A stretch of DNA of 64,000 nt from Luteimonas rhizosphaerae (GTDB lineage: Bacteria; Pseudomonadota; Gammaproteobacteria; Xanthomonadales; Xanthomonadaceae). Shown here piece by piece: positions 22,301 through 29,533 of this stretch. The notes under the pieces are model-generated. The model was not told where the DNA came from, ran no database searches, and saw only the letters and a list, made by a program, of their open reading frames with translations. Numbering within the stretch: position 1 is the stretch's first letter; each line of letters begins with the position of its first letter. The stretch is from positions 186,001 to 250,000 of the forward strand of contig NZ_NRQR01000013.1 of the NCBI RefSeq assembly GCF_002849595.1. The letters are read 5' to 3'. A program made the position numbers and the translations under genes.

Positions 22301-23287
22301 TCACAGCAGGGCGGCGAAGCGCGACAGCGCCGCGTGCCCGGTGACCTCCACCGCCTGCAGCGGAATTTCCTGCACGGGAATGCCGGGCAATGCGTCGCCG
22401 AGCATGCGCAGGTAGTCGTCCTCCTGCTGGCGACGCCGCGCGAGGAACTCGCCCGCATCGCCGGGCGCCCGCTTGTTGACGACGAGGCCCGCGACGACGA
22501 TGCCCGCGCGTCGCAGCTGCGTTTCGAGCTCGATGGTCTCGAGCACCGGCAGCCGCTCGGCGGCGAGCACGGCGACGAAGGCTGTCGTGGCGGCATCCGA
22601 CAGCACGCTGCGCAGGTGTTCGAAGCGGTGCCGGCGGCGATGCAGCAGCTGGCGGATGCGCTGGTCGCGCTCGCCCGCCGAATCGGTCCGCGCCTCACCG
22701 CCCAGCGCACGCTGGGCGACGCCGTCGTCACCGCCCAGTCCCTGCAGCAGACCGCCGAAGCGCTCGCTACGCGCCTGCCGGTGCAGCAGGCCTTCGGTCC
22801 ACGCCGACATCATTTCCGGCAACGCCATCAGGCGCGCGGTGTGGCCGGACGGCGCGGTGTCGAAGACCACCAGATCGTGCGCCTGCAGGCCGGTGTCGAC
22901 GAGTTCGGCGATCCGCTCCAGCAGGGCGGCTTCGTGCATGCCGGGCGCGTCGCGAGACAGCGCCATGTGCTTGTCGACCTCGCCGGCCAGGTGCGGCGGC
23001 ATCATCCGCCGCAGCGCGCCGCCGACTTCGGCCAGATGCGCGTCGACGGTCGCGTCGGGATCCAGCTCCAGCGCATCGAGGTTGGGCGCGACGCGGACCG
23101 GCGTCGCGCCCACCGGCCGCGCCCACAGATGGCCGAGGTTGTGGGCGGGATCGGTCGAGACCAGCAACACCCGGCGGCCGGCTTCCGCCTGCGCCAGCGC
23201 GACCGCCGAGGCCATCGTGGTCTTGCCGACGCCACCCTTGCCGCCGAAGAACAGCACCCGGCGCGCGGCGGCGAGCGTCAGCAGCAC
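22301..23287 (-). CDS. ArsA/Get3-like ATPase linked to cstA
   Basis: A 328-residue P-loop ATPase of the ArsA/Get3 family (SIMIBI class), a single ATPase domain. The deviant Walker A GGKGGVGKTT is at residues 15-24, the switch regions are STDPAHNLG and FDTAPSGHTARLM, and the guanine/adenine-contact segment is VVNKRAP. There is no cysteine anywhere, so it has neither the arsenite-binding cysteines of ArsA nor the zinc CxxC of Get3, and no arsB or arsR is near. The GTG start overlaps the end of the small Cys-Cys gene by 10 nt, which in turn overlaps cstA. A role with the CstA transporter is inferred from this tight coupling; the exact function is unknown. Confidence 0.85.
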   Translation of the reverse strand: MLLTLAAARRVLFFGGKGGVGKTTMASAVALAQAEAGRRVLLVSTDPAHNLGHLWARPVGATPVRVAPNLDALELDPDATVDAHLAEVGGALRRMMPPHLAGEVDKHMALSRDAPGMHEAALLERIAELVDTGLQAHDLVVFDTAPSGHTARLMALPEMMSAWTEGLLHRQARSERFGGLLQGLGGDDGVAQRALGGEARTDSAGERDQRIRQLLHRRRHRFEHLRSVLSDAATTAFVAVLAAERLPVLETIELETQLRRAGIVVAGLVVNKRAPGDAGEFLARRRQQEDDYLRMLGDALPGIPVQEIPLQAVEVTGHAALSRFAALL

Positions 23288-23559
23288 CCGATGTGGTCCA
23301 GCGGCGAGCGCTCCATGCCCATGCGCCGGTGCCAGGCGTGGAAGCGGTCGTACATCGCCGGCATCAGCTCCAGCGTGTAATAGGTCGCCGGGTTCGGCAC
23401 GCCCAGCGATTCGGAGAAGACCATCAGCATGAACAGGTCTTCCTCGTCGCGCTGGGCGCGGGCGAAGGTGCGCCGGTACGGCGCCATGTAGAACTCGCGC
23501 AGGCCCGCCGACAGGCGGGCGAGCACGCCGGGCGCCACGGGTGCGCCCGGCCCGGTCAC
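23278..23559 (-). CDS. Small protein ending in Cys-Cys, between cstA and the ArsA-like gene (cory-CC-star type)
   Basis: A 93-residue protein starting at a GTG that overlaps the cstA stop by 4 nt (GTGA). It has no membrane segment. Recognisable parts are an amphipathic REFYMAPYRRTFARAQRDEEDLFML segment (about 23-47), then SESLGVPNPATYYTLEL, and it ends HIGCC-stop. The terminal Cys-Cys and the position between a carbon-starvation transporter and an ArsA-like ATPase match the family I recall as 'cory-CC-star'; that name is from memory. Function unknown. The paired terminal cysteines could be a metal-binding, redox or lipid-attachment site. Confidence 0.75.
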   Translation of the reverse strand: MTGPGAPVAPGVLARLSAGLREFYMAPYRRTFARAQRDEEDLFMLMVFSESLGVPNPATYYTLELMPAMYDRFHAWHRRMGMERSPLDHIGCC

Positions 23560-25226
23560 TTCTCTTCGACCAGGTCGCGGCCCTCGCGGCCCTGGCGCAT
23601 CGCGACCGCGGCCTCGAAGGCGACCCACACCGCGGCGACCAGGATGACGATGTCCATACCCAGCAGCAGCCACTTGCCGTCGTTGTAGAACGTGCCCAGC
23701 TGCACGACCAGCGCGTAGACCGACATGATCATCAGGAACACCATCGGGATGCCGGTCAGCCAGGGATTGCGGCCCTTGCGGATCAGGATGACGGTGATGA
23801 TCGCCAGGGTCAGCGCCGCCAGCAGCTGGTTGGTGGTGCCGAACAGCGGCCAGATCACCATGCCACCGCTACCGCCGCTGCCGGCGCCGAAGGCCAGTGC
23901 CAGGCAGACGGCCAGCGCGATCACGGTGCCGAGGATCGTGCCGACCTTGAAGCCGGCCAGCTCGGCCGCTTCCTGCACGACGAAGCGCTGCAGACGCAGG
24001 CCGGTGTCCATCGTGGTGGCGGCGAACAGGATCGCCATCGTCGCCAGCAACGTGGAGCCGAGGTTCTGCGGCAGGCCCAGCCCGGCCGAGATCAGCGCTT
24101 CACCGCCGTTGACGAACGCGGTGACGTTGCCGCTGCCGAAGCTGCTGTAGACCATTTCCCAGTCGACCAGCGTGGCGAAGCCTGCGGTGCAGCAGATGAT
24201 CGCCGCCAGCGACAGCATGCCCTCGCCGACCGCGCCGAAGTAGCCGACGAAGCGTGCGTCGGTTTCCTTGTCGAGCTGCTTGGACGTGGTGCCGGAGGCG
24301 ACCATGCCGTGGAAGCCGGAGATCGCGCCGCAGGCGATGGTGACAAACAGCAGCGGCACGATGCTCGGGGTGCCCGCCGGCACCGCCGTGTTGAAGGCCG
24401 GCGCGACGATGGTCGGCGAGGCGATCAGCACCGCGGCGTAGAGGATGCCCAGGCCGACGAACAGCTGCAGGCCGTTGATGTAGTCGCGCGGCTGCAGCAG
24501 CACCCACACCGGCAACAGCGAGGCGATGCCGGCGTAGAGGAACAGCAGCACGATCCACGTGGAATTCGCGCTCATGCCCAGCACCGTCTCGGGCAGCACG
24601 ATCGGATACAGGCTGCCGAGCCAGATCAGCGCGTACAGCACGGCGACGCCGATGATCGACGGCCACAGCAGGCCCATCTTGAAGCGGTAGATCGCCTGGC
24701 CGATGAGCAGCGCGACCACGATCGCGCCCCAGACCGGGATCACGGAGGTCGGCGTGGAGACCAGCAGGTTCGAGATCACGACCGCGAACGCGGCGTTGAC
24801 CATCAGCAGCAGCAGGAAGATCACCACCAGGAACAGGTTGCGCCCGCGGCGGCCGATGTAGCTGCCGCTGAGCATGCCCATCGACTGGCCCTTGTTGCGG
24901 ACGCTGGCCCACAGGGCGCCGAAGTCGTGCATGCCGGCGAAGAACACCGTGCCGAACACCACCCAGAGGAATGCGGGGCCCCAGCCCCAGATGACCGCGA
25001 TCGCAGGTCCGACGATCGGCGCCGCGCCGGCGACCGACGTGAAGTGGTGGCCCCACAGGACGAACTTGTTGGTCGGCACGTAGTCCACGCCGTCGCGCAG
25101 CGTGTGCGCCGGAGTCCGGAACTCGGCGTCGAGCCGGTAGATCTTCTCGGCGATGAACTTCGAGTAGAAGAAATAACCGAGCGCCATGATCGTCAGACCG
25201 ACGACGAGCAAAATGATCGCATTCAT
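23556..25226 (-). CDS. CstA family carbon starvation transporter (556 aa)
   Basis: Integral membrane transporter of the CstA family with about 15-16 helices. It has the family's FVLWGHHFTSVAGAAPIVGP motif near residue 55 and CGAISGFHGMVASGTTSKQL in the centre. CstA-type proteins import peptides and pyruvate under carbon limitation. The start is the ATG at 25226, placed about 8 nt after a GGGGAGG Shine-Dalgarno; a GTG three codons upstream overlaps that site and was rejected. It is the first gene of an operon with the Cys-Cys protein and the ArsA-like ATPase, and divergent from a second, longer CstA paralogue. Confidence 0.93.
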   Translation of the reverse strand: MNAIILLVVGLTIMALGYFFYSKFIAEKIYRLDAEFRTPAHTLRDGVDYVPTNKFVLWGHHFTSVAGAAPIVGPAIAVIWGWGPAFLWVVFGTVFFAGMHDFGALWASVRNKGQSMGMLSGSYIGRRGRNLFLVVIFLLLLMVNAAFAVVISNLLVSTPTSVIPVWGAIVVALLIGQAIYRFKMGLLWPSIIGVAVLYALIWLGSLYPIVLPETVLGMSANSTWIVLLFLYAGIASLLPVWVLLQPRDYINGLQLFVGLGILYAAVLIASPTIVAPAFNTAVPAGTPSIVPLLFVTIACGAISGFHGMVASGTTSKQLDKETDARFVGYFGAVGEGMLSLAAIICCTAGFATLVDWEMVYSSFGSGNVTAFVNGGEALISAGLGLPQNLGSTLLATMAILFAATTMDTGLRLQRFVVQEAAELAGFKVGTILGTVIALAVCLALAFGAGSGGSGGMVIWPLFGTTNQLLAALTLAIITVILIRKGRNPWLTGIPMVFLMIMSVYALVVQLGTFYNDGKWLLLGMDIVILVAAVWVAFEAAVAMRQGREGRDLVEEK

Positions 25227-25513
25227 CTGTCGCACCTCCCCTGCACTTGCCGCGGTGGGAACACCGCCATGCAGGAAGGATCGCCGCTGGGGGACAGGGA
25301 GGGAACCCCTGCGGGGACGATAAGTCCCCCGGCTACGACTAAAGTCTGATCCGCGCGCGAACGTCGCGCGCGTGCGCGCATGTACTTGTTTTTATGGGTA
25401 TCCCTGCGAGGGCTCGCTATATAACAAGCGTCGTTCGACGCGGCATGCGAAAAATCCCGTTGACGGTGTCGGGCGACGGCGCGACGCTTCGCGCCATCAA
25501 CGAGGGCTGAGCT
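25227..25513. promoter_or_regulatory. Shared upstream region of two divergent cstA-family operons
   Basis: No gene seen. The 287-nt gap must hold promoters for both operons. A GC palindrome lies at about 25352-25373 (CGCGCGCGAACGTCGCGCGCG), and an AT-rich stretch with TATATAA at 25418-25424 is a good -10 for the rightward gene, though no clear -35 is placed before it. G-run and C-run blocks (about 25288-25332) can pair with each other. Growth-phase or carbon-source control is expected from the genes but no known operator was recognised. Confidence 0.4.
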
Positions 25514-27604
25514 ATGAACGGTGTTGCAAAACATGCCCTCTGGGGCGCGGTGGCGCTGCTGGGCGCGACCTGTCTGGGCGTGATCGCCCTGCGCCAGGGC
25601 GAGCAGATCAGCGCGCTGTGGATCGTCGTCGCGGCGGTGTCGATCTACCTGGTGGCCTACCGCTACTACAGCCTCTTCATCGCCGACAAGGTGATGGGCC
25701 TCGACCCGCGCCGGGCCACGCCCGCGCACGTCAACAACGACGGTCTGGACTACGTGCCGACCAACAAGAACGTGCTGTTCGGCCACCATTTCGCCGCGAT
25801 CGCCGGCGCCGGTCCGCTGGTCGGTCCGGTGCTCGCCGCGCAGATGGGCTACCTGCCCGGCATGCTGTGGCTGATCGTCGGCGTGGTGCTGGCGGGCGCG
25901 GTGCAGGACTTCATGGTCCTGTTCGTGTCGACGCGCCGCAACGGCCGTTCGCTCGGCGATCTGGTGCGCGAGGAGATGGGACCGGTCGCCGGCACGATTG
26001 CGCTGTTCGGCGCCTTCATGATCATGATCATCATCCTGGCGGTGCTGGCGATGATCGTCGTCAAGGCGCTGGCGGAAAGCCCCTGGGGCATGTTCACGGT
26101 GATCGCGACGATGCCCATCGCGATCTTCATGGGCGTGTACATGCGCTACATCCGGCCCGGCAAGATCGGCGAGATCTCGGGCGTCGGCATCGCCCTGCTG
26201 CTGTTCGCGATCTGGTTCGGCGGCAAGGTCGGCGCGGATCCCTACTGGGGTCCGGCCTTCACCTTCACCGGTATCCAGATCACCTGGATGCTGATCGGCT
26301 ACGGCTTCGTCGCCGCGGTGCTGCCGGTGTGGCTGCTGCTCGCGCCGCGCGACTACCTGTCGACGTTCCTGAAGATCGGCGTGATCGTCGCGCTGGCCAT
26401 CGGCATCGTCATCGCCAGCCCGGAAGTCACGTCGCTGAAGATGCCGGCGTTCACCGAGTTCGCCAGCAGCGGCGACGGTCCGGTGTGGAAGGGCGGCCTG
26501 TTCCCGTTCCTCTTCATCACCATCGCCTGCGGCGCGGTCTCCGGCTTCCACGCGCTGATCGCGTCGGGCACCACGCCCAAGCTGCTCGCCAACGAAGGCC
26601 ATGCCCGCTACATCGGCTACGGCGGCATGCTGATGGAATCGTTCGTGGCGATCATGGCGCTGGTCGCGGCCTCGATTCTCGATCCGGGCATCTACTTCGC
26701 GATGAACAGCCCGGCCGCCGTGCTCGGCACCGACGTGCAGAGCGCGGCCGCGGCCGTCAGCCAGATGGGCTTCGTGATCACGCCCGAAGTGCTGGCACAG
26801 ACCGCGCGCGACATCGGCGAAGGCTCGATCATCTCGCGCGCCGGTGGCGCACCGACGCTGGCCGTCGGCATCGCGGTGATCCTGCATGACGCGATTCCCG
26901 GCGGCGACGGCATGATGGCGTTCTGGTACCACTTCGCCATCCTGTTCGAAGCGCTGTTCATCCTGACCGCCGTCGATGCGGGCACGCGCGCCGGCCGTTT
27001 CATGCTGCAGGACCTGCTCGGCAACTTCGTGCCGGTGCTGCGCAAGACCGAGTCGTGGACCGCCAACTTCATCGGCACCGCCGGTTGCGTCGCGCTGTGG
27101 GGCTACTTTCTCTACCAGGGCGTGGTGGATCCGCTCGGCGGCATCAACACGCTGTGGCCGCTGTTCGGCATCGCCAACCAGATGCTCGCGGGCATCGCGC
27201 TGATGCTGTGCACGGTGGTGCTGTTCAAGATGAAGAAGGGCCGCTACGCGTGGGTGACCGTCGTGCCGGCGGTCTGGCTGCTGATCTGCACGACCTACGC
27301 CGGCCTGATCAAGCTGTTCGACCCCAAGCCGGCGCTGGGCTTCCTCGCCCAGTCGCGCCACTACCAGGCGGCGATCGCGAACGGCGAACTGCTCGGTGCG
27401 GCCAAGAGCGGCGGCCAGATGCGCCAGCTGGTGATCAACGGCTACGTCAACGCCGGCCGGACGGGCCTGTTCCTGTTCGTGGTCTTCAGCACGCTGTTCT
27501 TCGCGGTCCGCGCGATCCTGCGCGCCCGCCGCAGCGCGCAGCCGACGGTCCGCGAATCGCCCTACGTCGAACTGACGCCCGAACAGCAGCAGGCGTGGCT
27601 GTGA
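25514..27604 (+). CDS. CstA/BtsT family pyruvate/carbon starvation transporter (696 aa)
   Basis: Second CstA-family membrane transporter, 696 residues, the length of E. coli CstA and BtsT. It has about 16-18 helices, the NVLFGHHFAAIAGAGPLVGP motif near residue 88, CGAVSGFHALIASGTTPKLL in the middle, and FILTAVDAGTRAGRFMLQDLLG near residue 490. Family members import pyruvate or peptides. It is followed 28 nt later by a YbdD/YjiX protein, the same pairing as E. coli cstA-ybdD and btsT-yjiX. Compared with the divergent 556-residue paralogue it has extra residues in the C-terminal half. Confidence 0.93.
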   Translation: MNGVAKHALWGAVALLGATCLGVIALRQGEQISALWIVVAAVSIYLVAYRYYSLFIADKVMGLDPRRATPAHVNNDGLDYVPTNKNVLFGHHFAAIAGAGPLVGPVLAAQMGYLPGMLWLIVGVVLAGAVQDFMVLFVSTRRNGRSLGDLVREEMGPVAGTIALFGAFMIMIIILAVLAMIVVKALAESPWGMFTVIATMPIAIFMGVYMRYIRPGKIGEISGVGIALLLFAIWFGGKVGADPYWGPAFTFTGIQITWMLIGYGFVAAVLPVWLLLAPRDYLSTFLKIGVIVALAIGIVIASPEVTSLKMPAFTEFASSGDGPVWKGGLFPFLFITIACGAVSGFHALIASGTTPKLLANEGHARYIGYGGMLMESFVAIMALVAASILDPGIYFAMNSPAAVLGTDVQSAAAAVSQMGFVITPEVLAQTARDIGEGSIISRAGGAPTLAVGIAVILHDAIPGGDGMMAFWYHFAILFEALFILTAVDAGTRAGRFMLQDLLGNFVPVLRKTESWTANFIGTAGCVALWGYFLYQGVVDPLGGINTLWPLFGIANQMLAGIALMLCTVVLFKMKKGRYAWVTVVPAVWLLICTTYAGLIKLFDPKPALGFLAQSRHYQAAIANGELLGAAKSGGQMRQLVINGYVNAGRTGLFLFVVFSTLFFAVRAILRARRSAQPTVRESPYVELTPEQQQAWL

Positions 27605-27632
27605 GCCGCGTCGCTGCCGGAGGGCGACGCTG

Positions 27633-27857
27633 ATGGCCGGGGCGCTCGTCCCGGTCGCCTACTTCGCCACGCACAAGCGGGTGTGGCGCCGGGTCGTGCA
27701 GACCGCGCGCCTGTGCTGCGGCGTGCCGGATTACGACAACTACGTCCGGCACGTGCTCGAGAAACATCCCGACCGCGAACCGATGGACTACAAGACGTTC
27801 TTCCGCGAACGCCAGGAAGCCCGCTTCGGCGGACGCAGCGGATTCCGCTGCTGCTGA
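27633..27857 (+). CDS. YbdD/YjiX family small protein
   Basis: A 74-residue protein of the YbdD/YjiX family. VPDYDNYVRHVLEKHPD and YKTFFRERQEARFGG are the family core, and it ends GFRCC-stop. In E. coli YbdD and YjiX are encoded with CstA and BtsT and are needed for, or enhance, pyruvate uptake; that is established knowledge. The terminal Cys-Cys parallels the unrelated Cys-Cys protein in the divergent operon. Last gene before a strong terminator. Confidence 0.93.
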   Translation: MAGALVPVAYFATHKRVWRRVVQTARLCCGVPDYDNYVRHVLEKHPDREPMDYKTFFRERQEARFGGRSGFRCC

Positions 27858-28028: not shown

Positions 28029-28551
28029 TCAGGGCGTCGGGGCGAGCCCTTCCGCGTACTGGTACGACAGCAGCGCCTTGACCAGGAAGTCGACCTGGGC
28101 CGGCTGCCGCGCATCGACCCGCAGCACGGGAATCTTCCAGCCGCGCGCGAGCAGCGCGTCGCGGAATACCGACAGGGTGAAATCGCCGGTCAGGTCGGTC
28201 CGCGTCACGCCGACGGCGAAGCAGGCCTGCGGCGCGAGTTCGCGGAAGCGCCGCAACAGCACGTCGGCGCTCTCGATGCGATCGGGCGTCTGCGCGTTGA
28301 CCAGCACGATGATCCCCATCGCCCCTTCGGCGACCACCGGGCACGCCGTAGACGTGCAGCAGCTCGCCGCTGTCGAGTTCGATCGAGCTGTAGTCGAGCG
28401 CGACCGTCGTGTGCGTCTTCTCCGACGTGGCGTCGTCGCTCAGCGGCATTTCGGTGCTGATGGGCTCCTGGTCCGAGATGGCGCGGATCGCGGTCGTCTT
28501 GCCCGCCCCCATGTCGCCGACGAACACCAGCTTGGTAGTGACATTAGCCAC
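28029..28551 (-). pseudogene. MglA-like small GTPase of the roadblock cassette, frameshifted
   Basis: Ras-like GTPase of the bacterial MglA/roadblock-associated type, in two frames. From the GTG at 28551 one frame gives KLVFVGDMGAGKTTAIRAIS (P-loop at residues 11-18), a T-rich switch I region and LLHVYGVPG. At about 28338 the frame breaks, and the protein resumes in another frame as VVAEGAMGIIVLVNAQ with the TRTD base-contact motif, to a stop at 28029. The nine or so residues that normally follow VPG (a Q-x-R-F-x-F-M-W-P-like segment) are missing, so about 29 nt is absent rather than one base. An intact gene would give about 183 residues. The start overlaps the 330-aa gene by 8 nt. Real deletion or assembly error cannot be told from this sequence. 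Confidence 0.75.
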
Positions 28552-29533
28552 GGCTTCCTCCGAATTGCATTCCGAACCGGCGCGCGACGCGCGCCAGGAA
28601 CCCGCGTGCGGGCGCAGCCGCGATCTCCGCCGGACGCGGGACCGCGACCGGGGCGACGGGCCGGGTATCGATGACGGCGAGCCCGCTGCACTTCGCCGCG
28701 GCGAGGATGCGCGTCGCGTCCTCCAGGCCGAGCCCGGTGGCCCGGGCGAGCGACTGCCGCGTCCAGCTGTGCTGCAGCAGGCAGGCGATCGGCAGCAGCC
28801 ACGGCAAAGGCAGCGTCGCCACGTCGACATCGGGCCAAGCCCGCAGCGCGAGCCGCTGGGCGGCCGGCACCCGGGTCAAGGCAGGACCGCTCGCGATCGC
28901 CGCGCGCCAGACGAAGGCGTCCAGCGGGACGCCGGCACCCAGGCCGAGCGCGGCGGGATCGAACGTCCCCGACAGCATCGCCACGGGTTGCCAGCCCGGC
29001 TGCGCGCCGGCGCGCGCGAGCACGGACGGGGCGTCGTCCGTCGTCGGCGGGTACAGCAGGCCCGCGCGGGGATCGATCGCGACGCGCACGCCGTCGCGTT
29101 CCAGCAGCATGGACGCGTCGCGCGCGGCGAGGTGATCGAACAGCGTCGCCTCCACCGGGGCCGCGACCGGCGCAGGCGCGACGGCCGCCACCGCGTCGGT
29201 GACCGGCGCCACGTCCAGCAGCGTGTCGCGCAGGCGTTCGAACAGTTCCTTGACCGTGGCGCCGTGACGCAGCCCGTCGCGGTCGTCGTCGAGCTGCCGG
29301 GCGATGCGCACCACGGCGATGCCGGCGTCGCGCCCCTCGGCCGCGGCGGCGTGGCCGTGGGCGTCGTCGACGTTGGCGATCAGCAGGCGGACGTCGGAAT
29401 CCGGCCAGGTCAGCAGGTCGGCCGAGACCCGCTCGGCCATCAGCAGCGAGCAGGCGACCTTCAGGCGGGTCATGTGCAACAGGTCGAGCCCCGCCGAGGC
29501 GATCCGTGCTTGGAGAAATCTGGGCGTGGTCAT
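28544..29533 (-). CDS. Uncharacterised 329-aa protein of the roadblock/GTPase cassette
   Basis: Function not recognised. The N-terminal 110 residues alternate strands and helices (DLLTWPDSDVRLLIANVDDAHGH, DAGIAVVRIA) in a way reminiscent of a degenerate receiver or other alpha/beta fold. A Val/Ala/Pro linker follows (about 118-135), then a central region and a C-terminal helix-rich part (ACLLQHSWTRQSLARATGLGLEDATRIL) that looks like a winged-helix module. The tail is basic. No membrane segment or signal peptide. The start chosen is the ATG at 29533; a TTG five codons upstream is possible. It sits between the roadblock genes and the GTPase, overlapping the latter by 8 nt, so it is probably a regulator or effector of that GTPase switch. 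Confidence 0.65.
   Translation of the reverse strand: MTTPRFLQARIASAGLDLLHMTRLKVACSLLMAERVSADLLTWPDSDVRLLIANVDDAHGHAAAAEGRDAGIAVVRIARQLDDDRDGLRHGATVKELFERLRDTLLDVAPVTDAVAAVAPAPVAAPVEATLFDHLAARDASMLLERDGVRVAIDPRAGLLYPPTTDDAPSVLARAGAQPGWQPVAMLSGTFDPAALGLGAGVPLDAFVWRAAIASGPALTRVPAAQRLALRAWPDVDVATLPLPWLLPIACLLQHSWTRQSLARATGLGLEDATRILAAAKCSGLAVIDTRPVAPVAVPRPAEIAAAPARGFLARVARRFGMQFGGSRG

Follow-up and report, generated by a model that had tools for sequence, protein, structure and literature searches.

The DNA analyzed here, a 64,000-nucleotide (nt) stretch of Luteimonas rhizosphaerae contig NZ_NRQR01000013.1 (hereafter, the window), carries two divergent operons, each encoding a transporter of the CstA family together with a small protein that ends in two cysteines (CC). 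CstA/BtsT transporters take up pyruvate and peptides. The leftward operon comprises a short CstA-family transporter (P0003), a cory-CC-star protein (Cory; P0002), and a single-domain ArsA/Get3-type ATPase (P0001), and the rightward operon comprises a long CstA/BtsT-type transporter (P0004) and a YbdD/YjiX family protein (P0005). An initial annotation, made from the letters alone, had described these five genes, their coordinates, overlaps of 4 and 10 nt and both CC-stop ends, all of which proved exact, and had proposed that the leftward genes form a functionally undescribed three-component uptake system. We find that the three-gene unit is real and conserved. Our preferred reading, which we consider possible if short of probable, is that Cory and the ATPase constitute an ATP-driven adaptor or maturation pair for the short CstA, with a metal or thiol site of two histidines and two cysteines that is probable in most members.

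The linkage was assessed in a genome scan that confirmed 569 relatives; the best 80 of these 569 served as genome loci, thus leaning to near relatives, and with 10 further loci (L007 to L016, the window's own included) they make up a set of 90. At all 90 loci, an ArsA-like gene directly follows Cory on the same strand, and Cory ends in CC (90/90). A short CstA lies directly upstream of Cory at 34 of the best 80 genome loci and at all 10 further loci; one locus comparison took 57 of the best 80, near-identical, other-strand, and earlier loci having been dropped. The three-gene linkage therefore exceeds what chance would give and recurs outside this genome, as found by the very co-occurrence survey that the initial annotation had proposed. 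A start codon allowing the identical 10-nt overlap of Cory and ArsA is present at 78 of the 90 loci. We considered whether the CC end is a side product of the overlapping ArsA start and rejected this idea, since 12 of the 90 loci lack such a start and all 90 Cory proteins nevertheless end in CC.

The small protein is already named as a curated NCBIfam family and is not an orphan: Cory of the window scores 139.3 bits against NF041419 (curated cut-off, 80), and a Pfam scan of it matched no family. The family is sparse, i.e., present in 7 of 398 genomes of a phylum sample and in 18 of 198 genomes (14 above the cut-off) of a second phylum sample centered on Kocuria, which we assign to the Actinomycetota from that center. 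In the latter sample, ArsA accompanies 15 of 15 CC-type loci and CstA 14 of 15. Plasmids of Pseudochrobactrum, Paracoccus, and Cytobacillus (Alphaproteobacteria and Bacillota) carry the trio as well (three of three records opened, out of six Cory records), with one additional small gene between CstA and Cory in Cytobacillus. The archaeon Haloferax volcanii, a control genome, gave an NF041419 match below the cut-off, possibly another divergent Cory. Scans of viral contigs yielded no Cory and two YbdD loci, the latter being used for the YbdD model. A literature search, whose coverage left most subscription journals outside, returned no study of cory-CC-star or of a CstA with an "ArsA family ATPase." Thus, the claim of a functionally undescribed system stands insofar as this search gave no functional description, but the 93-residue protein itself already has a family entry. 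An ordinary-looking annotation here conceals a conserved unit, with a small protein that is named and of which that search found no study.

Features of the two divergent operons in the window (aa, amino acids)
Feature	Coordinates	Strand	Details
Short CstA-family transporter (P0003)	25226-23556	-	ATG start; 556 aa; PF02554 451.5 bits, in two stretches (gathering cut-off 27)
cory-CC-star protein, Cory (P0002)	23559-23278	-	GTG start; 93 aa; end HIGCC-stop; FHAWH (H74, H77); C92-C93
Single-domain ArsA/Get3-type ATPase (P0001)	23287-22301	-	GTG start; 328 aa; 0 Cys; no CxxC
CstA stop/Cory start overlap	23556-23559	-	4 nt
Cory/ArsA overlap	23278-23287	-	10 nt, GTGCTGCTGA; Cory end codons TGC TGC TGA within ArsA start
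Long CstA/BtsT-type transporter (P0004)	25514-27604	+	696 aa; PF02554 849.5 bits; separate system
YbdD/YjiX family protein (P0005)	27633-27857	+	74 aa; end FRCC-stop; H40, H45; C73-C74
Region separating the two divergent operons	25227-25513	.	287 bp

That the two CstA operons of the window lie divergently side by side is incidental, because at none of the 34 linked genome loci do the flanks examined contain YbdD or a long CstA (one scoring >400 bits to P0004) (32 of the 34 offer at least ~2.4 kb upstream of CstA); the suggestion that the two operons form a conserved pair is accordingly dropped. At one locus (L080, 6001 to 9511), a long CstA directly follows Cory-ArsA in place of the short one, and the search of that genome gave no short CstA. 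Further along the window (28029 to 28830, minus strand) lies a small gene that is GTPase-like and includes a P-loop (GDMGAGKTT); a frameshift seemingly splits it, its two apparent parts being in different frames.

An adjacent short CstA is missing at 46 of the best 80 loci, and it is here that the Cory-ArsA pair might be thought to serve another client, e.g., in the handling of zinc or another metal, and to accompany CstA only in some lineages. About 30 of these 46 loci form a gammaproteobacterial block with a ratA-fur-recN neighborhood, in which smpB, bamE, fur, and recN were read by eye in 28 to 30 loci; across the 46, ratA was counted 29 times, rnfH 23, an SNF transporter 34, and a TonB receptor 23 (one member of each of these four clusters was checked with Pfam). 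The TonB receptor that we scanned has histidine-rich loops and a subthreshold match to ZrgA (21.8 versus 27.4). Against another client, a search of the unlinked genomes found a short-type CstA (typed by length and score) elsewhere in 29 of 34; moreover, the CstA and ArsA trees both group 19 unlinked genomes, where the Cory tree groups 16 only. We thus regard a different client as unlikely and retain the short CstA as the partner of the pair. That CstA search took 35 of the 46 unlinked loci, of which 34 were counted (L036, the one left over, carries a short CstA as well as a CstA fragment at a contig edge), and included five linked loci as a check; the CstA tree also includes 19 of the 29. In the 398-genome sample, a CstA of at least 53% identity to P0003 occurs in 7 of 7 Cory genomes versus 4 of 391 others. 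Mirror-tree correlations ranged from 0.52 to 0.90, which vertical inheritance explains equally well, and we give them little weight.

At L023, L028, L052, and other loci, Cory-ArsA sits within a ratA-rnfH-fur-recN block with an SNF transporter upstream and a TonB receptor with histidine-rich loops downstream. The idea that the SNF carrier replaces CstA, which arose from L023, L050, and L052, was rejected, since at the loci listed ratA and rnfH lie between the SNF gene and Cory and a short-type CstA exists elsewhere in those 29 of 34 genomes. An alignment of the CstA groups yielded no clear set of CstA residues that mark dependence on Cory. Residues C299 and H306 of P0003, in the motif CGAxSGxH, are invariant across all aligned CstA groups, short and long, and so do not track the partner.

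The ATPase belongs to the Get3/ArsA/TRC40 superfamily, scoring 200.8 bits with PF02374 (cut-off, 24.3) and 214.3 with TIGR00345 (cut-off, 135), and its nucleotide motifs GGKGGVGKT, DPAH, and DTAP are kept in at least 97% of 90 homologues. As the initial annotation had noted, it has no cysteine; 41 of the 90 homologues likewise have none, and no alignment column holds cysteine in more than 19 of the 90, such that the metalloid-binding cysteines of the ArsA pump are not found. A Pfam scan of eight neighboring open reading frames (ORFs), four of which have a known domain other than a domain of unknown function, detected no arsenic genes. CxxC is the zinc motif of the Get3 dimer. P0001 has no such motif, nor have the 16 homologue rows that we inspected; in the alignment of P0001 with 3zq6, the CEFC of the latter faces gap-EFL, its two cysteines corresponding to a gap and a leucine. 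The ATPase sequence thus argues against a classical arsenite site and a Get3 zinc clasp, but not against ATP-driven work.

Two alternatives follow from this family membership. One holds that the ATPase and Cory energize CstA directly, so that it would pump at the expense of ATP in the manner of ArsB with ArsA; P0001 lies in a family of transport-energizing ATPases (TIGR00345), and an ATPase, a small CC protein, and a membrane transporter together resemble ArsA, ArsD, and ArsB, ArsD having vicinal cysteines. We nonetheless think this improbable, given that the ATPase is without conserved metalloid-binding cysteines, that it reaches 142.5 bits with the arsenical-pump equivalog TIGR04291 (far under the cut-off of 650), and that close short CstAs occur in Cory-less genomes with no ArsA in the flanks examined, such that CstA can probably work alone. 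In the other alternative, the ATPase would be the bacterial counterpart of Get3 and, helped by Cory as a co-chaperone, would bring CstA or some other hydrophobic client to the membrane. The best matches of the ATPase among solved structures include 3zq6 (aligned over residues 11 to 325), which we take to be an archaeal Get3 and which was deposited as a putative arsenical pump-driving ATPase, and eukaryotic Get3 chains come next. This reading is not a likely one either in view of the missing CxxC, and polytopic membrane proteins such as CstA are normally expected to use the signal recognition particle (SRP)/Sec route. An adaptor or maturation role at CstA remains our choice for the pair.

Cory and YbdD were compared with respect to their tails and histidines. 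P0005 scores 84.4 bits with PF04328 (gathering cut-off, 25) and has the CC tail of the YbdD/YjiX family. A shared GVP motif and the CC end had suggested by eye that Cory and YbdD are one family, which we rejected: HHalign gave a probability of 0.5, and scores at least equal came from 13 of 60 column shuffles and, when the tail was kept, from 36 of 60, in agreement with the earlier statement that the two proteins are dissimilar apart from CC. The Cory profile is shallow (about 2 effective sequences), so distant homology may still exist. Both proteins combine a conserved pair of histidines with the tail. More specifically, all 104 CC-ended Cory proteins have both H74 and H77 (HxxH), and all 8 CC-less ones lack both; among YbdD proteins, H40 is kept in 39 of 40, H45 in 40 of 40, and CC in 39 of 40 (L223, L241, and L242 were dropped from these counts as repeats). 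A metal or thiol site of two histidines and two cysteines is thus probable in most Cory members, and the two CC proteins may share a chemical step, because both pair two conserved histidines with a CC tail.

The tail could also act without metal, i.e., as an oxidation sensor or a disulfide donor for CstA. AlphaFold2 predicts Cory as a helical hairpin with a loose, low-confidence tail (predicted local distance difference test [pLDDT], 74.6), and YbdD as three helices, likewise with a low-confidence tail (pLDDT, 71.8; predicted template modeling score [pTM], 0.48; three sequences); the Cory tail is probably flexible, which counts in favor of a thiol switch. The selenoprotein model KCU-star (NF033934) matches P0005 below its cut-off (44.8 versus 85), so that a selenocysteine-ended relative exists. 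We consider a pure redox switch quite unlikely, however, since H74 and H77 co-vary with CC and redox chemistry alone does not require them.

A Kocuria-centered search and follow-up class searches led to a branch of cysteine-free Cory-like proteins. Four genomes of two classes (2 of 27 in one class and 2 of 40 in the other; loci L243 to L246 and L251) carry two such genes in tandem, in all four cases flanked by CstA and, on the opposite side, by two ArsA-like genes; in one of them (G577), the set is spread over two contigs. All eight members lack the CC tail and both histidines. The two that we scanned reach 33.0 and 43.2 bits with NF041419, below its cut-off of 80, and match no Pfam family at an E value of 0.01; a plasmid search with a cysteine-free Cory-like protein gave no match. 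In G722, the two ArsA-like proteins are without cysteine, one having NPVH for DPAH and the other DLVP for DTAP, which suggests an asymmetric pair. That Cory-like and ArsA-like genes double together argues that their products bind each other. The partnership does not rest on the histidine/cysteine site, because the cysteine-free members lack it.

From this gene linkage we infer the following mechanism. Besides a transporter, the short CstA, the leftward operon would encode two cytosolic proteins dedicated to activating it. These are Cory, as a small adaptor of helical structure, and the ArsA-like ATPase; their genes are adjacent and overlapping, and the two proteins would act as one unit in a physical complex. 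The ATPase, whose motifs are intact, would cycle with ATP, and Cory would serve as the adaptor that recognizes or modifies CstA, thereby maturing or gating the transporter or keeping it active. In most members, the His-x-x-His and the flexible C-terminal Cys-Cys of Cory may jointly bind a metal ion or a thiol, either for delivery to CstA or for a check there. Going by the family, one may guess that the short CstA transports pyruvate or peptides; neither P0003 (212.9 bits) nor P0004 (1,077.6 bits) reaches the cut-off of 1,188 for the pyruvate/proton symporter CstA equivalog (NF011590, PRK15015). The rightward operon might be the YbdD-type answer to the same need.

This last point can be set against what is known of Escherichia coli and its relatives. 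ArsA-type ATPases and YjiA-type GTPases both belong to the broad P-loop class SIMIBI. The yjiA gene of E. coli directly follows btsT-yjiX, and a YjiA homologue lies beside YbdD/YjiX at 16 of 39 loci (16 of 30 for L191 to L220, and 0 of 9 for L180 to L188). According to the available portions of the cited reports, pyruvate uptake in E. coli falls to 13% without cstA and to 20% without ybdD (PMC5847655); cstA1, the small gene t4581, and yjiA are all lowered together in yehU and yehT mutants of Salmonella Typhi (PMC3875573); and YjiA, one of the COG0523 GTPases, contains a CXCC motif (PMC2770081) and binds cobalt, nickel, and zinc (PMC10763504). One transporter family thus appears to be served by two small CC-ended proteins between which no homology is detected and by P-loop NTPases of two kinds. 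A more general proposal would be that CstA-family transporters need a nucleoside triphosphate (NTP)-driven module, i.e., a small tail-bearing adaptor plus a P-loop NTPase, which would have arisen on two or more occasions from unlike components (once from YbdD/YjiX and the GTPase YjiA, and once from Cory and the ArsA-type ATPase) and converged on a two-histidine, two-cysteine site; in the branch where Cory-like and ArsA-like proteins both come in pairs, the module would persist without the site. We advance this generalization as a doubtful one.

Several observations weigh against an activation pair with site chemistry, or against its extension to YbdD. Five of the 34 unlinked genomes showed no short-type CstA in the search (three gave no CstA and two, one of them L080, the long type only). 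The four Cory-less genomes with a close short CstA belong to one genus, and a tree of 118 CstA pieces, some of them partial, places their CstAs and 19 unlinked CstAs in one clade (support, 1.0), which suggests either loss of Cory there or its dispensability. A second group of short CstAs (L161 to L179; 41 to 48% identity to P0003) has no Cory, ArsA, or YbdD in the flanks examined at 19 loci, and its genomes gave no NF041419 match. Cory-ArsA therefore accompanies the short CstA, but the short CstA is not always found with Cory-ArsA, as the genome counts and the Cory-less groups demonstrate. The proposal of a three-component system was to this extent overstated: its linkage is real, but CstA is not adjacent at 46 of the best 80 loci and does without Cory in those four genomes. 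The Cys pair had been thought to underlie a shared chemical step, but it is not the basis of the association, metal or thiol chemistry not being needed where cysteine-free pairs stand between CstA and two ArsA-like genes; moreover, the CC-less group consists of few related genomes, and the co-variation of histidines and cysteines may go back to a single event or to two. Overall confidence in the Cory model is low (pTM, 0.35), and profile comparison detects no Cory-YbdD homology. YjiA was not found in the flanks examined of 23 of the 39 YbdD loci, which include all nine of L180 to L188 and the window's own, and cobW matches in the window's genome are weak (29.5 and 22.1 bits). Finally, the available portion of PMC10763504 reports no chelator phenotype upon yjiA deletion.

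With another, unlike pair of partners for one transporter family, there would be a comparative handle on why CstA of E. coli needs YbdD. Such a pair would likewise point to a role for the metal-binding GTPase YjiA, whose structure has been solved, and for a group of ArsA-like ATPases of bacteria that are annotated by family only.

Compared with known systems, the ATPase of the window resembles ArsA and Get3/TRC40 in being a PF02374/TIGR00345 ATPase with intact nucleotide motifs, but differs from them in its single domain, its want of conserved cysteines and of CxxC, and the absence of an arsenic gene among the eight neighboring ORFs. Cory of the window does not differ from the NF041419 family, below whose cut-off both scanned cysteine-free relatives fall, and the plasmids of Pseudochrobactrum, Paracoccus, and Cytobacillus are annotated with a cory-CC-star gene that, as in the window, adjoins genes for an ArsA family ATPase and carbon starvation protein A. 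The parallel with E. coli is incomplete. The small proteins of CstA-YbdD and BtsT-YjiX-YjiA are not detectably homologous to Cory, and the E. coli NTPase is a COG0523 GTPase with CXCC, whereas that of the window trio is an ArsA-type ATPase without conserved cysteines. Like the trio, however, both E. coli systems join a CstA-family transporter to a small CC-ended protein, and BtsT-YjiX-YjiA also has the gene of a P-loop NTPase next door.

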